Shown piece by piece: positions 10,425-64,000 of a DNA stretch of 64,000 bases. Made by a program: the position numbers and the translations under genes. Source of the DNA: Siphonodentalium dalli (Eukaryota; Mollusca; Scaphopoda; Gadilida; Siphonodentaliidae); assembly GCA_032622095.1 (NCBI GenBank), contig CP136061.1, positions 36,957,797-37,021,796 on the forward strand, in the 5' to 3' direction. The notes beneath the pieces were generated by a model. The model searched no databases, was not told the DNA's origin, and saw nothing but the letters and a program-made list of their open reading frames with translations. Numbering within the stretch: the stretch's first letter is position 1; each line of letters starts with the position of its first letter.

Positions 10425-41110
<30,686 letters not shown>

Positions 41111-48414: not shown

Positions 48415-48814
48415 TTAACCCTTTACCCAACAGAAGGGCCCTGTGCCAATGCATTCTCTTATATATGCGAGTCGACCATAGGTCGCCTCGCATATATAAG
48501 AGAATGCATTGGCTTAACACATTACAAATTATAAAATTGTTAAAGAATGTAAGAAAAAATGGTAAAAAGTGTTAAAAAAAGATTTTTTTTAGGCCAATGC
48601 ATTCTCTTATATATGCGAGGCGACCTATGGCCGACTCGCATATATAAGAGAATGCATTGGCACAGGGCATAACTGTAACCATCACAATGTGGTCAATGAG
48701 CCGGTTCCAATGATATCCATATTTGTATGGTTCTATTGAGACAGACCGAAGATATTTTAGGCTGTTAAAGCTTTATTTGGCCGGTTTTGGCCGGTTTGTT
48801 GGGTAAAGGGTTAA
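48415..48814. mobile_element. two-hairpin MITE family P, complete copy
   Basis: A 400-bp reference copy with TTAA borders and CCCTTTACCCAACA...TGTTGGGTAAAGGG ends. Two stems each pair ccaatgcattctcttatata (then tgcgag) with its inverse; the loop of stem 2 is the inverse of that of stem 1. The right third is a ccggttttggccggttt-rich tail. Non-coding. Confidence 0.92.
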
Positions 48815-52918: not shown

Positions 52919-53308
52919 TTAACCCTTTACCCAACAGAACGGCCCTGTGCCAATGCATTCTCTTATATATGCGAGTCGACCATAGGTTGCCTCGCATATA
53001 TAAGAGAATGCATTGGCTTAACACATTAAAAATTATAAAATTGTTAAAGAATGTAAGAAAAAATGGTAAAAAAAGATTTTTTTTAGGCCAATGCATTCTC
53101 TTATATATGCGAGGCGACCTATGGTCGACTCGCATATATAAGAGAATGCATTGGCACAGGGCATAACTGTAACTATCACAATGTGGCCAAGGAGCCAGTT
53201 CCAATGATATCCATATTTGTATGGTTATATTGAGACAGACTGAAGATATTTTAGGCTGTTGCAGCTTTATTTGACCGGTTTTGGCCGTTCTGTTGGGTAA
53301 AGGGTTAA
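52919..53308. mobile_element. two-hairpin MITE family P
   Basis: Both hairpins intact with TTAA borders. Slightly shorter than 48415-48814 through loss in the AT-rich spacer. Confidence 0.9.
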
Positions 53309-54042: not shown

Positions 54043-54236
54043 TTACAGTTTATCCAGATAGTTCTCGACTTTTGGTATGGTCACCGCAAGTCCCTTTCTC
54101 TGTCTGATTTCTGTTACTACTGCTCCAGAACGCGAGCTTGGATCCAAGGGGTCACCAGGTACGAGTTGCCAATGGTCGAAAATACACTGCGGGAAGGCCT
54201 GACCCCCTGTCTTCGATCTGAGCTCACTGGTGAAGC
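54043..54236 (-). CDS. EEF2: eEF2-like terminal exon: domain V end
   Basis: A 194-nt exon after cttttccag with stop TAA at 54045-54043. It encodes [20 protein letters not shown] then [40 protein letters not shown] and LDKL. The C-terminus has the same length and end as ordinary eEF2, so the protein is not truncated. Confidence 0.96.
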
Positions 54237-57200
54237 CTGGAAAAGAACACAGAAATTACATGAAAATGTTATTGCAACATTTTTAATCATAGAGAATCAT
54301 GCATATAATACAAGAACACAGAACAGATATGAAGATACCCAAAGTTCCAAGTCTGGGAAGTTTCATTAGCACCCCCCCCCCCCCCCCCACACCACCACCA
54401 TGCACTGTTGTATTGGAATTTCCAATAGTTGGAAAGCATGAAGTACCAGTCCCAACGTAAAGGGGTGCATATATGTGACCCGCCATATCAAATCCAGTCG
54501 GAAGTCGGGATTTTTTTACCCTGTGCCAATGCATTCTCTTATATATGCGAGTCGACCATAGGTCGCCTCACATATATAAGAGAATGCATTGGCCTAACAA
54601 TTTTTTACAATTTTAATAATTTGTTTTTGTATTCTTTAACAATTTTATAATTTCACCCATACAGAGCCCCAGACAAACATGAGCAGACGACACTCTTCTA
54701 GGTGCTTCTGTATATGTGTGGGGCTCCTTGCAGGGTAATGCATGTTTTTTTTATTTTATTTCCTAAAAATTGTAAGAAACATTTATTTAAAAAAATGATA
54801 AAATATTGTTAGGCCAATGCATTCTCTTATATATGCGAGGCGACCTATGGTCGACTCGCATATATAAGAGAATGCATTGGCACAGGGTAAAAAAAAAATT
54901 TCAACTGGTACCTCAAGCTTTCCAACATGACATCCCCTCAGGTTGGATGTTTACAAACAAATGGTCATTTCAGTTCAAAACATTTACCAAAGTAAGAAAA
55001 TATGCAACTTTTTGTCCAAAAAAATACAAATTTCACACAAATAATGGTTGGGAGATCAAACAATCAGAACAACTATTTTTAGTTGGAAATTTTCAAAGTT
55101 CTGATGTAAGTTGGGCATGACATTTCCAAAAGTTGAAATTTTGATCAAAGTTTGCATGTGTGAGACCCCCCCCCAAAACCCACATGTGTGAGACCACCCC
55201 CAAAACCCACATGTGTGAGACCCCCCCCCCCAAAACCCACATGTGTGAGACCACCCCCAAAACACACATGTGTGAGACCACCCCCCAAAACACACATGTG
55301 TGAGACCACCCCCCAAAACACACATGTGTGAGACCACCCCCCAAAACACACATGTGTGAGACCACCCCCCAAAACACACATGTGTGAGACCACCCCCCAA
55401 AACACACATGTGTGAGACCACCCCCCAAAACACACATGTGTGAGACCACCCCCCAAAACCCACATGTGTGAGACCACCCCCCAAAACCCACATGTGTGAG
55501 ACCACCCCCCAAAACCCACATGTGTGAGACCACCCCCCAAAACCCACATGTGTGAGACCACCCCCCAAAACCCACATGTGTGAGACCCCCCCCCAAAACC
55601 CACATGTTGCCATATCTTTGCCAGTATAAACCACTGAGTGTGTTAGAGTCTAATTTGGTGATTATGACAGTTGGTGTTTAGTTTATATGTAATTCTACCA
55701 GGGAGCATCCCAGAGGTTTAAAATGGGAGAAATCACTGCTCCCGATATGTTTGTTAGGGAGAAGTGGACTGTTATTAGGGAGAAGTGGACTGTTATTAGG
55801 GAGAAGTGGACTGTTATTAGGGAGAAGTGGACTGTTATTAGGGGAAGTGGACTGTTATTAGGGAGAAGTGGACTGTTATTAGGGAGAAGTGGACTGTTAT
55901 TAGGGAGAAAAGTCATCAAATCTGAAGATCAATTTGCATCTGAACAACAGACTTCTTCGATCCAATAAGTATAATACTATACAAGAGCTCATTTATATTA
56001 CCCAATGTAATCAATAATTACATTGCTGTAATCAGCAAATAAATTTCAAATACACTGTTTGGAGATATACATTTGAGGGAGTAGTCACTTCTTCCGAGGA
56101 CACAAATATGGACAAGCAAGCCTTGAAATAGTGTAATGCCTAACCAGAATGAGGTCGCCAGAGGGTGAATTTTGTGATGCTAGCCCACTGTACGGGATAG
56201 AATCACTAAATTCAACCTCTAGATACCTCATTTTGCAAATGACAGGCAGACTATGTCAAGGCTTGGTCCTTAAATATGCTGGCTGTTGAGACTCTTACCA
56301 GTGTAAAGCACCTAGACTATGTTATGGTCTAATCTGGTGACTATGGCTGTCAGTTTTTAGTTTATATGTCATTCTGCTGCCATGGATACTCACCGAAAGA
56401 TTCGCTGACAGGCAGGAAGGCCCGGATGGTGCACATCGGTGAGTTCGGGCTGTGTAATTCTTCTACTATTGTTCCTCTCTTCTTTGTCAGAGTTCCGAAT
56501 ACTCCTCCAACAACATGTTCATTACACTGTGGATAAATATAGAAAATTTGAGTCAATATTACAGTCCTTGTCCAGACATCAATGTTATGTCATTCTCTGC
56601 TATTGCTTGAAATTTGATAAGGACATTTAGATTGAACATTGTACTTATTAAAGATACGGGCGGCGTTGGCGGTGGGTATGCTGTTAAAATATTCACCTCC
56701 ATCAAAACTGCCAAAAACAGAAAGAATAGTAAAATATAGACAGATTTGTTCTTATACCAACCAGAAATATGGCATAAACAGTATGTTATTGTCAATTTTG
56801 TTTCCTTTGTTATGTAAACAAAAGCAAAAAACGTTACGTTTCCTGGCTTTTGTTTAGATCCTGATATGGTAAACATAAAGAGCATTATTTGTTACTGTTT
56901 TCCTGATATGGAAATAATAAAGAGCGTTTATATCATTTGTGTGTGATTAACCAATAGAATTGCGCTGTGTTATGCAAACAGAAGCACAACTTCTGTAACA
57001 CAAGCAGGCTCTTGTTTATGTACACCATCGTACGTCTTGACGACAATATAATATTTACGCGCTCATTATGTTTGGCACATGAACAAAACTATATATATTT
57101 TAATATTCCTTGTGTTGATGGTGATTAGAACAAATATGAATATTTCTTCAACTAACGACGCCTGTGCCTTTAAAGCTGCATCTAGTGTTCACACCACTAT

Positions 57201-60200
57201 TATACTAAATTAAAGTTTTGTCATGATTGCCTAATTAACCATTTCTTCACTATATACACACTGAAGATTAGTTCCTTCAGGAAATGTTCAGATAATAAGA
57301 TCATAGGTTATTTGTTGAACTTTAAAATTATCTGAACATTTCCAACCAAATAATATGAATCCATCAGCACTTCTATTATCATTTCTGTCTTATTTTTCCT
57401 GAACACCACTCTAGATGAATAATAGACCATTCTAATGTATACATGTATTACTGAGTGGGAGAACCATTTAGACTAGAAAGGGTTACAATAGGACCAACTT
57501 GCATAATTTGTCAGGATAATGGAAACTACTTCCTTTAACCCTTTTACCCAACAAACCGGCCAAAAACGCCCATATAAAGCTTCAACAGCCTAATATATCT
57601 TGGGTCTGTCTCAATAAAACCATACAAATATGGATATCATTGGAACCGGCTCATTGACCACATTGTGATGGTTACAGTTATGCCCTGTGCCAATGCATTC
57701 TCTTATATATGCGAGTCGACCATAGGTCGCCTCGCATATTTAAGAGAATACATTGGCCTAAAAAAAATCTTTTTTTAACACTTTTTACCATTTTTTCTTA
57801 CATTCTTTAACAATTTTATAATTTTTAATGTGTTAAGCCAATGCATTCTCTTATATATGCGAGGCGACCTATGGTCGACTCGCATATATAAGAGAATGCA
57901 TTGGCACAGGGCCCTTCTGTTGGGTAAAGGGTTAACTAAAAGCAGGACAATTTTTCTGTTCATGAATTTCTGCCATGCTTTGTTGTTTGAATATCCTTTT
58001 CAGTGAACTCATCACTCGCCAGATTGCGCACATATTTTCATTTTAGAACATATTCCACAATTTGAATGACGAGTGTCAAATGAATCGAAGATGTTAGATA
58101 TTACAAACAAAACAACCAACTACCATTTTGGTCTTCAAGCATTTACAGTATACTTTCTCAGGAATTCTTTTCAAATTGTCCAAGCAAGTGACTAACATGG
58201 ATAGAGATACTGGCAGGAAAGTGATCAGTTTAAATGAGCTGAGTTTGCGGAAGAATCTCATCAATGAGATACAGTAATGCACTAATTAATCGACTCCATA
58301 ACCACAGCAGAATTATGGGTTATTTTTCAGGATTTAGTCGGAAATATGGCTTGTTGCCATTCATCGGAAAGCTCTCAGTGAGAGCTTTCCGATGAATGGC
58401 AACAAGCCATATTTCCGACTAAATCCTGAAAAGTAACCCATAATTCTGCTGTGGTTATGGAGTCGATTAATTAGGGCATTACTGTACATGTTGTTCTTGA
58501 GTAAAACGAAAAGAAAAAATATTCACCTGGATTTCTACTTTATAGACTGGTTCCATGAGTCTTGGCTTGGCTGTGAGCATGGTTCCCATGACACATCGCC
58601 TCATGGTTGGTATGACCTGTGATGCCTGTCTGCATGAAGGGTCGCTATGGACCTGGGCGTCCCTGATGTCGAATCTCACACCTCTCACTGCCTCTTCACA
58701 GAGAACACCCTGTAAAAATTACAAAAATTAACCCTTTACCCAACAGAACGGCCCTGTGCCAATGCATTCTCTTATATATGCGAGTCGACCATAGGTCGCC
58801 TCGCATATATAAGAGAATGCATTGGCTTAACACATTAAAAATTATAAAATTGTTAAAGAATGTAAGAAAAAATGGTAAAAAGTGTTAAAAAAAGATTTTT
58901 TTTAGGCCAATGCATTCTCTTATATATGCGAGGCGACCTATGGTCGACTCGCATATATAAGAGAATGCATTGGCACAGGGCATAACTGTAACTATCACAA
59001 TGTGGTCAAGGAGCCGGTTCCAATGATATCCATATTTGTATGGTTCTATTGAGACAGACCGAAGATATTTTAGGCTGTTGAAGCTTTATTTGGCCGGTTT
59101 TGGCCGGTTTGTTGGGTAAAGGGTTAACCATTTTATTCCTAAATGGACTGATGTTAGTTACAAATTTTAATATATAAATAATTTCTATGAGCAAGAATAT
59201 TTGCTATCCACATTTGAACACATCGGTATAGTGGTTCACATCATTTTATCTGTTCCATGACCATAACGGCTGTGTTGTATTGGGACCAAGATAACCGAAA
59301 AAGCATTTGGTCATGGTATAAATAAATCCTGTTATATGTGTTCAGCATCAATTTAATTTGTATGATACCCCAAATTAAACATGAATATGTCATTCTGTTA
59401 TACATTCATGAGTATTTTAAAAAGCTAAAATGGGGCATTTTGAGCACACATTTCAAATATTAAATGTTGCACTATTTCCTTGAAAAGTCAGCTCAGAGAC
59501 AGCGCTTGCCAAGCACGGTAGCACGGTAGTGACAGGATTAACAAATAAATCTTAACCAATAACAACACACAAAAATATAAATTATGTTTTTTTTATATAA
59601 TTTATTCATATATGCAATCAACGTCGTTTTCGATGCATCTGTCGGCGTATAGAAGTGTCGGATGCCGAACTACATAAATTGGGCGACCGACCGGAAGTTC
59701 GAGATGAACACGCACAATTCGATCGCTGTTTCCGATATTCCAACTACACAAAAGCAAGAGACCACACCCGTAAACTATTAAACTGTACTTGCTGGTGTAA
59801 ATTTGACTTATTTAAAACGATTCTAGAACATGTATTGTCATAAAGGCAATCCGATTCGATAGCAATTCCGAAGCGGTGTTCTCAAACTTCGCCACTGAAT
59901 TTGTGGTCTCCGGCGACTCGAAAAGTAAACAATCGCTACAAAGGTGCATTCTATGCTCTCATGACCACTGCCATGTCATATTAGTATTGGCATGAAGCTG
60001 GATAAATGCTAATACTAATGGTGGAATAGTTATGTAATACATTCTTTTATCCCCAAATAAATTAATGTACTATTTTGCTGTTTAATCGGTGATCATTATT
60101 CGCTGAGATTTGGCGTCTTGTGTTACCACTAGAAACGGAAGTGATTTCTTGCGATTTGATTGGTGGACAAAATAAAATTCCGGGTAAATTCGCCCCATGG

Positions 60201-63200
60201 ATATTCGACTTGGTTTGCGATCTTTTTAAGGTATCACTACCCCCAGTGATGCGGGAAACGACACTTCCCTCCACTGATAGATATTGTCGCTACCAAGCGT
60301 ATCTAAGGGCCTTGACCAATCAAATGCATGCATTTTAGTCAAAGCGAAAGTAGTTGTAATTATATTTTTGGTAACAGTATATTCATAGTATTACATATTT
60401 TTTAACATGAATACAAAAAACAATACAATACAAAATGTATATATATAACTTTATTTACTTAATATCATTTATTTATTTTTTGTTCATGAGAACCCTCTTC
60501 ATCTTCCAATGCCAATTCAGATACTTTTTGCTTGGTCTCAATATTCTGTGATGTGTATCATCAGCCAATTTAACATGGTTGGGCATTCGAGTTTCAACTT
60601 TCTGAGAAATTTCAGATAGTGAAATTTTCTTCCCGGAAGGTACATATGTGTGTACTGTCTTTGTAGAATTTGCTATATATATGTAGCATAACGCTTCTTT
60701 TTTTTTAGATACTAAATGGAATTAAAAATATAAATTATGTTAATCTTCTATTTATTTTGCCCATCAGTTTTGATTATGTACAGAAATAGAAGAGATTACT
60801 GATAACTAACCTCTTGTGTTGCCCACTGAAATCCTGCTTTGATTGGGTCACTTATGTTGTTGAGGTACTGCACTGCTTTAGTTGTGTCCAGAAGGATGTT
60901 AGGTCCGGTTGTGTTGGGGCCGAAGCACCAGATCTTCCTGGCTTCTCCTGCATCAAATCCATGGTTGTCAGCTAAGTATCGGGAACGTTCCTTTACGTCC
61001 TGTACCGATGCTACTTTTCCCTGTAAAATATTGTTGACTTTATCAGACAAGGCTCATTTGAAGAGATACTAAACATTGTTATATCAAAGTCTGTGCGATT
61101 ATAATGCAGGACAGTGTGTGCATTTGTGTTATTACCATGTGTTAGGCCTATAAAGGTTTATGGTTATTCACACCATCATTCACAACATTCTCCCTCAACC
61201 TCATAGCAGGATCATATTAGTAATGAGATAGTGGAGATAACAAAACATCTATAAAATTAAACTTCAATTGATTTTTTTGCTGCAGACAACTGCTGCAGAA
61301 GTGAAGAATGTGTTAGATGCATCCTTGCTCAAATTTTATTCCTATAGCTTCACAACCAAAATACATCTTTTTTCGATCGCCAAAGTAAAAAATGATATAC
61401 ACATAATGAAATAACTATAATTGAAAAGTTATCTAGAAACATGATCACTAGTGAAAAGTTGGCTACTCCTGTGACCAATATTTAAGAAATGACTTGAATA
61501 TCGATTGGAGTCATTGGTTTTGACTGGCAGAGTAAATATTTAAACAGAATGGGTGAATCCCAAAGAGATTCACACAAACTTTAAATTTTTTTAATTACTC
61601 TGCCATTCAAAACCAATGACCCCAATCGATATTCAACTCAACTTTTCAAAACTACCAAAACAATTGTAAGTAACATATTGTTCAAATTCCAACATAGTCT
61701 GTGACATAGGTGGTTCATAGCTGTTTATGAAGTGTACAGCACACATGGCTTGAAGTGACGTAGGTGGTTCATGGCTTTTTATGAAGTGTCAACTTCAGTT
61801 ATTGGTTTATGAACCTCAGAAATGTTTGTGTAAACCGTATGGCAAGATGTACTGATTCATTCAGGCACTAATTTTGTGAACGTACAGGGTGTGTGATTAT
61901 GAAATGATGGCTAAGCGTGTGACAAGTGCTTTCTGACAATGATTATAGATGAATGACCTCATCAGCTGTATTACTCACATCCTCTATCTCCTCAGTGAGG
62001 CCATCAGGTAAGGGCTCAGCTGTCATGAACAGTCTCACATGCTTGTTTGTTGTCTTAGAGAGGCACAGTCGGTCAGATTTATCAGATACTGTTTCGCAGT
62101 AGTTCACTATTGGCATGGATTGCTATAAATAAAGAGAGGTCAGTCAGCAATGAATAAATTAATTTAAAATAGTGTTAAATTTTGAGGATAACCATTGATA
62201 ATCAGAGACCAATGACAAGATGCTGCTATTACATTATCTCAAATACATGCTTAACTCTTCCATGACGGGAGATGTGCTGCACAATAAAAATCCTGTGCCA
62301 GTGCATTCTCTTATATATGCGAGTCTCCCATAGGGAGCCTCGCATATATAAGAGAATACACTGGATTATAATGTCTAGGTGAATATTGTTAGGCCTATGT
62401 ATTCTTTTGTACATGTAAGGCTCCCTATGGGAGACTTGCATATATAAGACAATACATTGGCACAGGGTTTTCACCAAAATTTCAGGAAGCTGAAAAGTTA
62501 AAAGTATTATACATGTATATCAGTGGGGACAATATTTAAATCATTCACAAAAGTGGAATCCATTCTCAGACACCCACCCATATCACTCACAGTTAGTCTC
62601 AGAATTTTTTTTTAGTTGACTGAACATTTCCCTTGATTTCCCAACTAATATTTAATATACATTTAGTTGAAACTTAATTTATATGTTATTGTTGGAAAAC
62701 ATGATGCTAAATATCCAAGCCTTGAAATAGTGTGTCGGTCATTTGCAGAATGAGGTTCCCAGAGGTTGAATTTAGGGCGCTACCCCGCACAGTGACGCTA
62801 CTGCACATACATTGAACTGATGCGTGGACTTATCAAACAATACCTTGATTGGAATTCTTGCATGCTCTTCTTCCAAATCTTTCAAACATATTTCAAGGTG
62901 AAGTTCTCCCGCTCCAGCTATGATGTGTTCTCCGTCATCATATGTGCACTGGAATGGAAATATTCAGTTGATATCAGGTATAATATCTTGGTTTTCTCAA
63001 TGATCCTATATTTTGACAAAGTTTCTCAAAAATGGCCCAAACAATTCCAAAATGGCCAAAATATTTACTTCTTTGAGTGTGTGAAATTGATAAGATAGTT
63101 TTCCGGTGCTATGCTAAATGGAGAAATGTAGCATTCTATTAATATCGCCGAGAATCTTAAACAAATCGTTGGAAAACATCGTCTGTAAATCATCTCAATT

Positions 63201-63684
63201 CAGGACGCAACTATCAGCGATAAACGAACGAAAAATATTTCGCCATCGATAGTCGCTGAATTTAATTAATATATAATAATGACGGGGTGTGTTGTCAATT
63301 TGGATATATTAATATTTGTAAAAATAACTACTTTGAGCAAGATTTTTCTCCATTTTATTTGATCACCCTACCGGAGTGTTTCACATCACTTTAAGTGGGA
63401 AGAGTAAAGGAGAGGAGATGCTTACCTTTACCATGGGATCAGATTTAGAGAGTCGTTTTAATCCTTCGACTAGCTTTGGTAGATCGGCTGCGTTAACAGC
63501 CTCGACAGCGATCCTCACGACCGGGCTCACTGAGAATTTCAGGACCTTAATGTTATGTGCTTCCTCATAGGTTGTGATGGTTCCGGTCTTGACAAGGAAG
63601 TTGTCAATTCCACCGAGTCCGACTACATTACCACATGGCACTTCATCTATCGACATCACAGAACCTCCCATCATTATCACTGTC
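54043..63684 (-). CDS. EEF2: eEF2-like translation elongation factor, C-terminal half (7 exons)
   Basis: eEF2 is the cytosolic GTPase that moves tRNAs and mRNA through the ribosome. Exons in transcript order: 63684-63426, 62948-62844, 62122-61979, 61020-60811, 58709-58527, 56526-56394, 54236-54043. All are GT-AG and phase-compatible, coding 408 residues plus stop. Coverage runs from domain II (TVIMMGG...) through III, IV and V; the GTPase domain lies beyond 64000. Most blocks match eEF2 closely ([50 protein letters not shown], final YLDKL), excluding EFTUD2 and EFL1. The diphthamide His is Cys and nearby tip residues differ, unlike ordinary eEF2, so this is probably a divergent paralogue. Intact frame and splice sites argue against a pseudogene. 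Convergent with KCNQ1. Confidence 0.93.
54512..54897. mobile_element. two-hairpin element, family P type 3 (intronic)
   Basis: Both ccaatgcattctcttatata stems are present. The element starts and ends at taccctgtgcc/ggcacagggta without the CCCTTTACCC ends. The spacer differs from other copies and holds tacagagccccagacaaaca. Confidence 0.75.
55153..55612 (+). repeat. 28-bp C-rich minisatellite, about 16 copies
   Basis: Units of cccacatgtgtgagaccacc plus ccccaaaa in the last eEF2-like intron. Middle units have aacacac for aacccac. Long minus-strand frames (up to 192 codons) are translated repeat. Confidence 0.96.
55745..55912 (+). repeat. 21-bp minisatellite, 8 copies
   Basis: agggagaagtggactgttat plus t, in the last eEF2-like intron. 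One unit has lost two bases. Confidence 0.93.
56117..56265. mobile_element. foldback family C, copy 7 (intronic)
   Basis: caagccttgaaatagtgtaa ... actatgtcaaggcttgg ends with a degraded central hairpin. Confidence 0.75.
56394..56526 (-). CDS. EEF2: eEF2-like exon: domain V
   Basis: A 133-nt exon (phase 0 in, 1 out) between tatccacag and gtgagt. It encodes [20 protein letters not shown] then [20 protein letters not shown] and SESFG. VVGGxxGxLxxKRG and LPVxESFG are typical eEF2 domain V blocks. The final G is completed by GC of the next exon. Confidence 0.95.
56648..57173. mobile_element. TTAA-flanked MITE family J, copy 2 (intronic)
   Basis: TTAAAGATACGGGCGGCG at the left; gacgcctgtgcctttaa at the right. 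Shares ataaagagcgtttat and gcataaacagtatg with 3619-4118. Confidence 0.7.
57535..57935. mobile_element. two-hairpin MITE family P (intronic, reversed)
   Basis: Complete copy with TTAA borders, opposite in orientation to 48415-48814. Confidence 0.92.
58273..58475. mobile_element. near-perfect 200-bp palindrome (intronic)
   Basis: Two arms of about 100 bp (gcactaattaatcgactcca ... cggaaagctctcag and the inverse) mirror each other with only a few mismatches, centred near 58378. No loop of note. Lies 51 bp past the donor of the diphthamide-site exon. Confidence 0.93.
58527..58709 (-). CDS. EEF2: eEF2-like exon: domain IV tip, diphthamide site lost
   Basis: A 183-nt phase 0-0 exon between tttacag and gtgaat. 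It encodes [20 protein letters not shown] then [40 protein letters not shown] and Q. In eEF2 the corresponding tip reads HxDxxHRGxxQ, with the second His changed to diphthamide. Here that codon is TGC, Cys (58632-58634), the next Gly is Gln, and the His of the usual FDVHD is Arg (58662-58664). Flanking residues align without gaps. A transposon border lies 19 bp upstream of the acceptor. Confidence 0.95.
58728..59127. mobile_element. two-hairpin MITE family P (intronic, beside an acceptor)
   Basis: Complete 400-bp copy with TTAA borders. The lower border is 19 bp upstream of the acceptor of the 58527-58709 exon (reading on the minus strand). Confidence 0.92.
59128..60810 (-). other. eEF2-like intron
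   Basis: Open frames at 59655-59843 and 60120-60338 (+ strand) have no recognised domain. Composition rises in GC over 59620-60340, possibly an old inserted sequence. Confidence 0.4.
60811..61020 (-). CDS. EEF2: eEF2-like exon: domain IV
   Basis: A 210-nt phase 0-0 exon between ttttacag and gttagt. It encodes [20 protein letters not shown] then [40 protein letters not shown] and [10 protein letters not shown]. The IWCFGPxxTGPNIL block is an eEF2 hallmark and is intact. Confidence 0.96.
61021..61978 (-). other. eEF2-like intron with a foldback
   Basis: 61497-61634 is an inverted repeat (atcgattggagtcattggtt and inverse). 61698-61800 holds a two-copy direct repeat of gtgac(a/g)taggtggttcat. 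Confidence 0.65.
61979..62122 (-). CDS. EEF2: eEF2-like exon: start of domain IV
   Basis: A 144-nt phase 0-0 exon between tttatag and gtgagt. It encodes [20 protein letters not shown] then [20 protein letters not shown] and GLTEEIED. eEF2 normally reads SYRETV at the first domain IV strand; here it is NYCETV, so the conserved Arg is Cys (62096-62098). The rest follows the family (LSKxxNKHxRL, PDGLxEdI). Confidence 0.94.
62251..62501. mobile_element. two-hairpin MITE family P, type 2 (intronic)
   Basis: TTAA borders, CTCTTCCATGACGGGAG start, and two diverged stems (tgcattctcttatatatgcg). Confidence 0.8.
62719..62800. mobile_element. foldback family C, half copy (intronic)
   Basis: caagccttgaaatagtgtgt and one gaatgaggttcccagaggtt arm only. 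It ends about 44 bp from an eEF2-like exon. Confidence 0.65.
62844..62948 (-). CDS. EEF2: eEF2-like exon: domain III
   Basis: A 105-nt phase 0-0 exon between ttccag and gtattg. It encodes [20 protein letters not shown] then [15 protein letters not shown], the GAGELHLE signature of the domain III fold of EF-G/eEF2 proteins. It lacks an ATG and was found by motif. Confidence 0.96.
63103..63394 (+). mobile_element. MITE family D, copy 4 (intronic)
   Basis: Starts tagcattctattaatatcgc and ends gatcaccctaccggagtgtt plus tcacatcacttt. The shortest and cleanest of the four copies. Confidence 0.75.
63426..63684 (-). CDS. EEF2: eEF2-like exon: domain II-III
   Basis: A 259-nt exon after ttcttttag, first base completing an Arg codon, ending AAG before gtaagc. 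It encodes [20 protein letters not shown] then [20 protein letters not shown], and further [20 protein letters not shown] ending SKSDPMVK. This is the domain II end and domain III start of eEF2, very well conserved. A mobile element (family D) ends 31 bp after the donor. Confidence 0.96.
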
Positions 63685-63946: not shown

Positions 63947-64000
63947 TTAACCCTTTCAGTGCCAAGTCCGATTTTTGTATCAACCCATATACCCTGTGCC
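63947..64000. mobile_element. start of another family P element, cut by window end
   Basis: TTAACCCTTTCAGTGCC ... ccctgtgcc reaches the window edge. Confidence 0.6.

Follow-up and report, generated by a model that had tools for sequence, protein, structure and literature searches.

The window (the whole stretch of DNA that was analysed, 64,000 nucleotides; C1:36957797-37021796 of a 2.23 Gb assembly in nine contigs) carries on its minus strand much of a complete eEF2-type gene, here termed eEF2L, which runs from 63684 down to 54043 and extends in its 5' part to 72181 in window numbering (Table 1). Thirteen coding exons were found, comprising 2526 bases with a single, terminal stop codon and neither internal stop nor frameshift; the product has 842 amino acids, counting a Met assumed to come from an upstream exon. 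All 12 introns between these exons are of the GT-AG type, and exon borders were set by these signals together with reading phase. The exon carrying the ATG was not located in the model built from the window and the fetched flank; an ATG in a separate exon is common for eEF2 genes, and the numbering used here takes this exon as exon 1. The preliminary description had called the frame, splice sites and length of the gene normal, which holds for the whole gene once the flank is added, but only the 3' half was visible at that stage, as the gene passes base 64000. Five domains (GTP_EFTU, domain 2, EFG_III, EFG_IV and EFG_C) follow one another in this order in the product, all above Pfam cut-offs. 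In HMMER comparisons, the 408 amino acids encoded within the window score 618 bits to animal eEF2, 333 to the 116 kDa U5 component and 197 to EFTUD1 (EFL1). Given the similarity to solved eEF2, the predicted fold of eEF2L is not in doubt.

Table 1. Features of the eEF2L locus and of the remainder of the window (window numbering).
Feature	Position	Strand	Basis or remark
Exon 14, last coding	54043..54236	-	Ends ...LDKL then TAA; GT-AG and phase model
Coding exon 13, domain V	56394..56526	-	GT-AG and phase model
Coding exon 12, domain IV tip, altered diphthamide loop	58527..58709	-	GT-AG and phase model
Codon TGC, Cys699 at the diphthamide His position	58632..58634	-	HMMER alignment and gene model
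Diphthamide loop, 12 residues	58617..58652	-	Own canonical copy: LHADAIHRGGGQ
Coding exon 11	60811..61020	-	GT-AG and phase model
Coding exon 10	61979..62122	-	GT-AG and phase model
Coding exon 9	62844..62948	-	Intron after it (residues 555/556) absent in the canonical copy, which has one open stretch there
Coding exon 8	63426..63684	-	GT-AG and phase model
Six 5' coding exons beyond the window	64711-64906, 67000-67258, 69150-69383, 70320-70528, 70910-71094, 71967-72181	-	
Hairpin sites	52949-53155, 54525-54881, 57689-57905, 58758-58974, 48445-48661, 23865-24051, others		Several in eEF2L introns
Long palindrome	58270-58486		Intron after exon 12
Minisatellite-like array	55140-55610		Last eEF2L intron; by eye
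Reverse transcriptase-like open frames	18235-21295	+	By eye
Potassium-channel-type exon	10425-10545	+	Ion_trans_2, Pfam

The diphthamide-accepting residue is His699 in yeast and His715 in human eEF2 (PMC6193676). The HMMER alignment sets the TGC codon of exon 12 opposite this His, as the preliminary description had read it, and the lone gap in the 408-residue alignment with animal eEF2 is one residue long and lies near query position 90, far from the Cys site. The change described there in the loop after the Cys is likewise borne out: the codons TCA TGC AGA CAG GCA TCA CAG give SCRQASQ where canonical eEF2 has IHRGGGQ, with five of seven residues replaced. Two features of a diphthamide-carrying eEF2 are thus missing from eEF2L, namely the recognition loop IHRGGGQ and the His at 699/715, which is present in all 185 sampled sequences outside the paralog clade described below. 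eEF2L is an eEF2 in its ancestry, but its predicted product lacks the diphthamide feature that defines such proteins. From the known chemistry, a protein missing the acceptor would receive no ACP group from DPH1-DPH2, carry no diphthamide and undergo no ADP-ribosylation at this position.

An assembly or base-calling error at the Cys699 codon is conceivable insofar as a single assembly is the basis, though the odds of it are very remote: passing from a His codon to TGC needs at least two base changes (the genome's own canonical copy has CAT), four other loop residues are also replaced and the frame remains open. Chance or miscalling is made unlikely both by the replacement of five of the seven IHRGGGQ residues and by the separate, independent occurrence of Cys in another sequence, P0166. 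Since UGC contains no A, A-to-I editing of the mRNA would be unable to restore His. An alternative exon encoding His was also considered and rejected, as tblastn with four eEF2 proteins (E up to 1e-3) detected no second exon 12 in the window and 30 kb of upstream flank.

A parallel eEF2 had been envisaged in the preliminary description, and a gene with the normal HRG motif does occur in the same genome, where canonical eEF2 is located at 120.75-120.89 Mb of contig C3 (C3:120753640-120889717) and reads HADAIHRGGGQ. A whole-assembly search with Pomacea eEF2 gave 36 exon-level matches among the best 50 candidates scored; no third eEF2 copy appeared among these 50, and the counts are lower bounds. 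Weaker matches to the eEF2 query at C3:288.0 Mb, C4:268.6 Mb and C4:216.6 Mb are read by us as other translational GTPases. The exons found of the canonical gene span approximately 136 kb, compared with approximately 18 kb for eEF2L. In a 40-row IQ-TREE phylogeny, the canonical protein groups with that of Pomacea (98/95), which points to a mollusc as the likely source of the genome; at 0.30, its end branch is roughly double those of the four remaining canonical copies in that group (0.12-0.14).

The two genes of this genome specify the same amino acid at 489 of 801 aligned codons (61%), and 11 of the 12 eEF2L introns lie at matching places in the canonical gene, as judged from tblastn ranges that are not base-exact. 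The intron at residues 555/556 occurs only in eEF2L, whereas the canonical copy, of which the stretch 283-323 was not recovered, seems to hold an intron near residue 323 that is absent in eEF2L. Such largely shared intron positions point to DNA duplication, not retroposition, as the origin of eEF2L. In comparison with canonical metazoan eEF2, the five-domain translocase architecture is the same, but Cys stands for the diphthamide His, QAS for GGG, LKGITIKST for ERCITIKST in switch I and HATDT for RFTDT at the eEF2-kinase site. The genome also contains two PF01866 loci, the family to which DPH1 and DPH2 belong: the one on C7 has a 431-residue open frame with matches to PDB chains labelled 2-(3-amino-3-carboxypropyl)histidine synthase and Dph2, and the one on C3 is a split gene. 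Alpha-kinase domains, the class to which eEF2 kinase belongs, gave six matches.

Relatives of eEF2L were gathered through three protein searches, each contributing the best 120 of 8000 scored candidates, which yielded 220 proteins. The sets compared below, 37 sequences within the clade and 185 outside it, are samples of top matches rather than a census, and the larger set includes some partial or fused entries. With the loop columns excluded, IQ-TREE analysis of 40 rows places eEF2L in a 27-member clade (100/100) that stands apart from canonical lophotrochozoan, arthropod and deuterostome eEF2, and FastTree analysis of 222 rows, with the same columns removed, recovers a clade of 37 (support 1.0). 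The alignment and tree proposed as a check in the preliminary description therefore show eEF2L to be monophyletic with mollusc eEF2-like paralogs, apart from canonical eEF2. Species names are attached to 21 of the 36 members besides eEF2L and represent 20 genera of gastropods and bivalves, all of which we take to be molluscs (Crassostrea, Pinctada, Mizuhopecten, Pecten, Ylistrum, Mercenaria, Mya, Mactra, Dreissena, Sinanodonta, Solemya, Patella, Haliotis, Littorina, Nucella, Babylonia, Batillaria, Bradybaena, Candidula and Plakobranchus). Proteins annotated as 'elongation factor 2' or '2-like' in Crassostrea, Patella, Haliotis, Solemya, pectinids, Littorina and others belong to this same clade, and the label 'elongation factor 2-like' in oysters and snails conceals a distinct protein.

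Branching order within the clade is less clear. P0166 is the first branch in the 40-row tree; eEF2L falls in a 19-row group (91/74), and its place inside the clade is not settled by the tree. The inner topology departs from the mollusc species tree, with heterodont bivalves and Sinanodonta joined to Haliotis (96/82) and with oysters, scallops and Solemya in a separate inner group (98/88). This mismatch may reflect further duplications, losses or tree error, and it makes the date of the duplication unsure.

The picture of an isolated oddity drawn in the preliminary description gives way to that of a paralog clade with a relaxed diphthamide loop, of which eEF2L is the extreme end. Clade members were first chosen by loop motif, a possible bias in the loop counts, although the 222-row tree calculated without the loop gave the identical 37. 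Ile714 is replaced by Ala, Ser or Thr in all 37 sampled members, eEF2L and the mollusc '2-like' proteins alike, whereas 183 of 185 other sequences have Ile. Replacement is also seen at Gly719 (18/37 versus 2/185), Gly717 (13/37, comprising Arg in eight, Lys in four and Gln in one, versus 1/185) and Arg716 (5/37 versus 0/185). The His itself is kept in 35 of the 37 and lost only in eEF2L and P0166, both with Cys (0/185 outside the clade). Pro stands for Ala697, which adjoins Ile714, in 29 of the 37. Besides its replaced Ile714, eEF2L has the Gly at position 67 (GITIKST) that is likewise common to all 37 sampled members. GGG is retained in 16 of the 37, in 14 of these as HRGGGQ, so a clade-wide absence of diphthamide cannot be concluded; the 14 proteins with HRGGGQ may well be diphthamide-modified. 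For the eight that carry Arg717, the same Arg that prevents modification, we infer that they are unmodified.

The eEF2-kinase site is altered as well. Its Thr, which is Thr56 in mammals, is kept in eEF2L (T57), and the preceding RF of the genome's canonical copy is changed to HA. Because Ala at position 55 is also found outside the clade (38 of the 173 sampled non-clade sequences with a letter there), loss of Arg54 is the clearer change at this site, this residue being present in 173/175 non-clade but 16/37 clade sequences sampled. Met takes the place of the kinase-site Thr in ten of the 37. Other forms of the diphthamide loop were also observed. The land snail copies P0138, P0142 and P0201 (Bradybaena, Candidula) read HCGGSQ, with Arg716 changed to Cys beside a retained His. 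Outside the clade, P0089 (Conger conger, 'elongation factor 2b-like') reads HSDSTHRGGAQ and P0122 (Drosophila nasuta, eEF2-like isoform) HADAVHRSGSQ; these are possibly separate cases of loop relaxation in duplicates.

The second Cys-bearing protein, P0166, has 847 amino acids, is 62% identical to eEF2L and reads VHRDPSCRKGGQV in the loop region. Its full frame lies on one contig of 3111 bases, as that of a spliced transcript would. The two Cys proteins need two changes on the tree, and holding them together is disfavoured in an AU test (p 0.0245, 20.9 log units), in which the group was named post hoc, after the motif had been seen, and both rows are long-branched. Two independent replacements are thus the better reading of Cys in eEF2L and P0166, though not a proven one.

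Several measures bear on whether eEF2L has been maintained. Of the 194 columns that are invariant across the other 39 rows of the alignment, eEF2L has a change at one (Q520K), as against departures from the most frequent residue at 254 of the 642 variable columns; the His column is not among the 194 because of the Cys in P0166. The same invariant-site count gives 0 to 5 for the other 26 clade rows. The end branch of eEF2L amounts to 0.46 changes per column (IQ-TREE), and a copy free of constraint over most of this branch would have changed much of the 194, which shows long-term selection on the protein. Differences from the genome's own canonical copy at codon positions 1, 2 and 3 are 0.32, 0.20 and 0.62; in comparison with this distant copy, dN is 0.32 and dS is saturated (NG86), so the dN/dS ratio is uninformative. 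In agreement with the preliminary description, which had thought a dead gene unlikely, the intact frame and splice sites and the single changed invariant site are incompatible with a long-dead pseudogene. A young pseudogene, or a copy recently relaxed in this species, would be harder to recognize, given that very recent relaxation is invisible to the constraint test and that eEF2L is known from sequence alone, and its loop departs from IHRGGGQ more than in the other 36 sampled members. The absence of any stop or frameshift over 2526 bases, the intact splice sites throughout and the near-complete retention of invariant residues despite the long end branch nevertheless make this explanation very improbable. 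Hence, eEF2L is probably an intact, selectively maintained eEF2 paralog, that is, a predicted GTPase of the ribosomal translocase type without the diphthamide acceptor.

With regard to function, eEF2L is most likely a specialised diphthamide-free translocase that would be insensitive to diphthamide-directed ADP-ribosylation. Monophyly of the clade and the largely shared introns suggest that eEF2 was duplicated at the DNA level early in or before molluscs. As the sequences show, the GTPase and five-domain frame are kept, and the tip of domain IV, which enters the decoding centre, has lost the loop recognized by the diphthamide enzymes to a varying degree across the clade and, in eEF2L, the acceptor His as well. 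Alongside diphthamide-modified canonical eEF2, the protein may serve certain tissues or stress conditions as an additional elongation factor, and could possibly sustain translation when the canonical factor is ADP-ribosylated or phosphorylated by eEF2 kinase. An eEF2 can function without the His, since yeast lives on eEF2 H699N or H699I as its sole eEF2 (PMC3585130), with a growth defect at elevated temperature reported for H699N (PMC11651573); this tolerance concerns Asn and Ile, not Cys. In oyster larvae, the 'elongation factor 2-like' gene 111103490, a candidate member of the paralog group only, is listed with a log2 fold change of 2.16 (adjusted p 0.05) between two treatments of an acidification experiment (PMC9498863).

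It is also conceivable, albeit unlikely, that eEF2L has given up translocation for the binding of idle ribosomes or some other GTP-dependent task. At canonical-conserved sites, eEF2L departs proportionally most often in domain IV (20/80, compared with 28/152 in G/G', 6/69 in II, 7/62 in III and 8/52 in V, within approximate domain limits set by us), and changes around the P-loop and switch I extend throughout the sampled clade (S33T and C67G in 37/37, R66K in 36/37), as a change of role might predict. However, the GTPase and other domains are strongly conserved in eEF2L, and the departure shares averaged over the clade are nearly equal (0.24, 0.21, 0.16, 0.19 and 0.21 for IV, G/G', II, III and V), which weighs against a non-translocating protein. 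The translocase reading can be sharpened into a backup against toxins: eEF2L would be kept mainly because diphthamide-directed bacterial toxins cannot ADP-ribosylate it, such that translation continues when canonical eEF2 is inactivated. Arg or Lys at position 717 in 12 of the 37 sampled clade members fits this proposal, as does the survival of such toxins by CHO PR328 cells in which one eEF2 allele carries Gly717Arg (PMC2816718). Filter feeders encounter Vibrio. Yet Gly717 is kept in 24 of the 37, and loss of the loop and His could have come about by drift once the factor had no further need of the modification, so there is little probability that toxin escape is the main reason for retention. 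The broader proposition, of which the specialised translocase forms the core, is that molluscs have kept a second cytosolic translocase since before the gastropod-bivalve split, and that this factor is escaping diphthamide and, in part, the eEF2-kinase site, with His replaced by Cys independently in at least two lineages, giving a natural diphthamide-proof and toxin-proof parallel elongation system in an animal. In this full form it can be put forward tentatively, with the balance somewhat against it.

Some archaea and parabasalids are said to lack diphthamide and so to have natural EF2 without the modification, a lack that in some archaea is linked to absent DPH genes; eEF2L differs in coming from an animal in which DPH1/DPH2-family loci are present. 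A further parallel is provided by CHO cells, in which Gly717Arg blocks diphthamide formation on eEF2 and translation continues (PMC2816718). There, a working undiphthamidated eEF2 exists beside normal eEF2, much as eEF2L, known here as a sequence, accompanies the canonical copy; however, the CHO variant is a laboratory mutation of one allele with His present, whereas eEF2L is a fixed paralog without the acceptor. Among the papers listed in searches of the open-access literature, judged by title and opening of the abstract, none deals with this paralog or with an animal eEF2 that naturally lacks the His. The retention by nearly all eukaryotes and archaea of diphthamide, a costly modification that takes seven genes and is known above all as a target of toxins, still calls for an explanation. 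If the proposed reading is true, animals in which a normal eEF2 works alongside one that cannot be modified would constitute a natural experiment on frame keeping, mRNA selectivity and toxin resistance within one organism.

The remainder of the window is marked by repeats (Table 1). A near-perfect, MITE-like hairpin of about 69 bases (GCCAATGCATTCTCTTATATATGCGAG...) recurs, often in pairs approximately 70-220 bases apart; one of its arms has 26 matches in the window at two or fewer mismatches, with none expected from shuffles. The near-perfect long palindrome has arms of 108 bases that are 98% complementary and one base apart, and the minisatellite-like array is built of units of about 35 bases (acccacatgtgtgagaccacccccc). 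The long open frames at 18235-21295 resemble by eye the reverse transcriptase of a non-LTR retrotransposon and are broken by frame changes; the two long frames there gave no match in Pfam. The potassium-channel-type exon appears KCNQ-like by eye.
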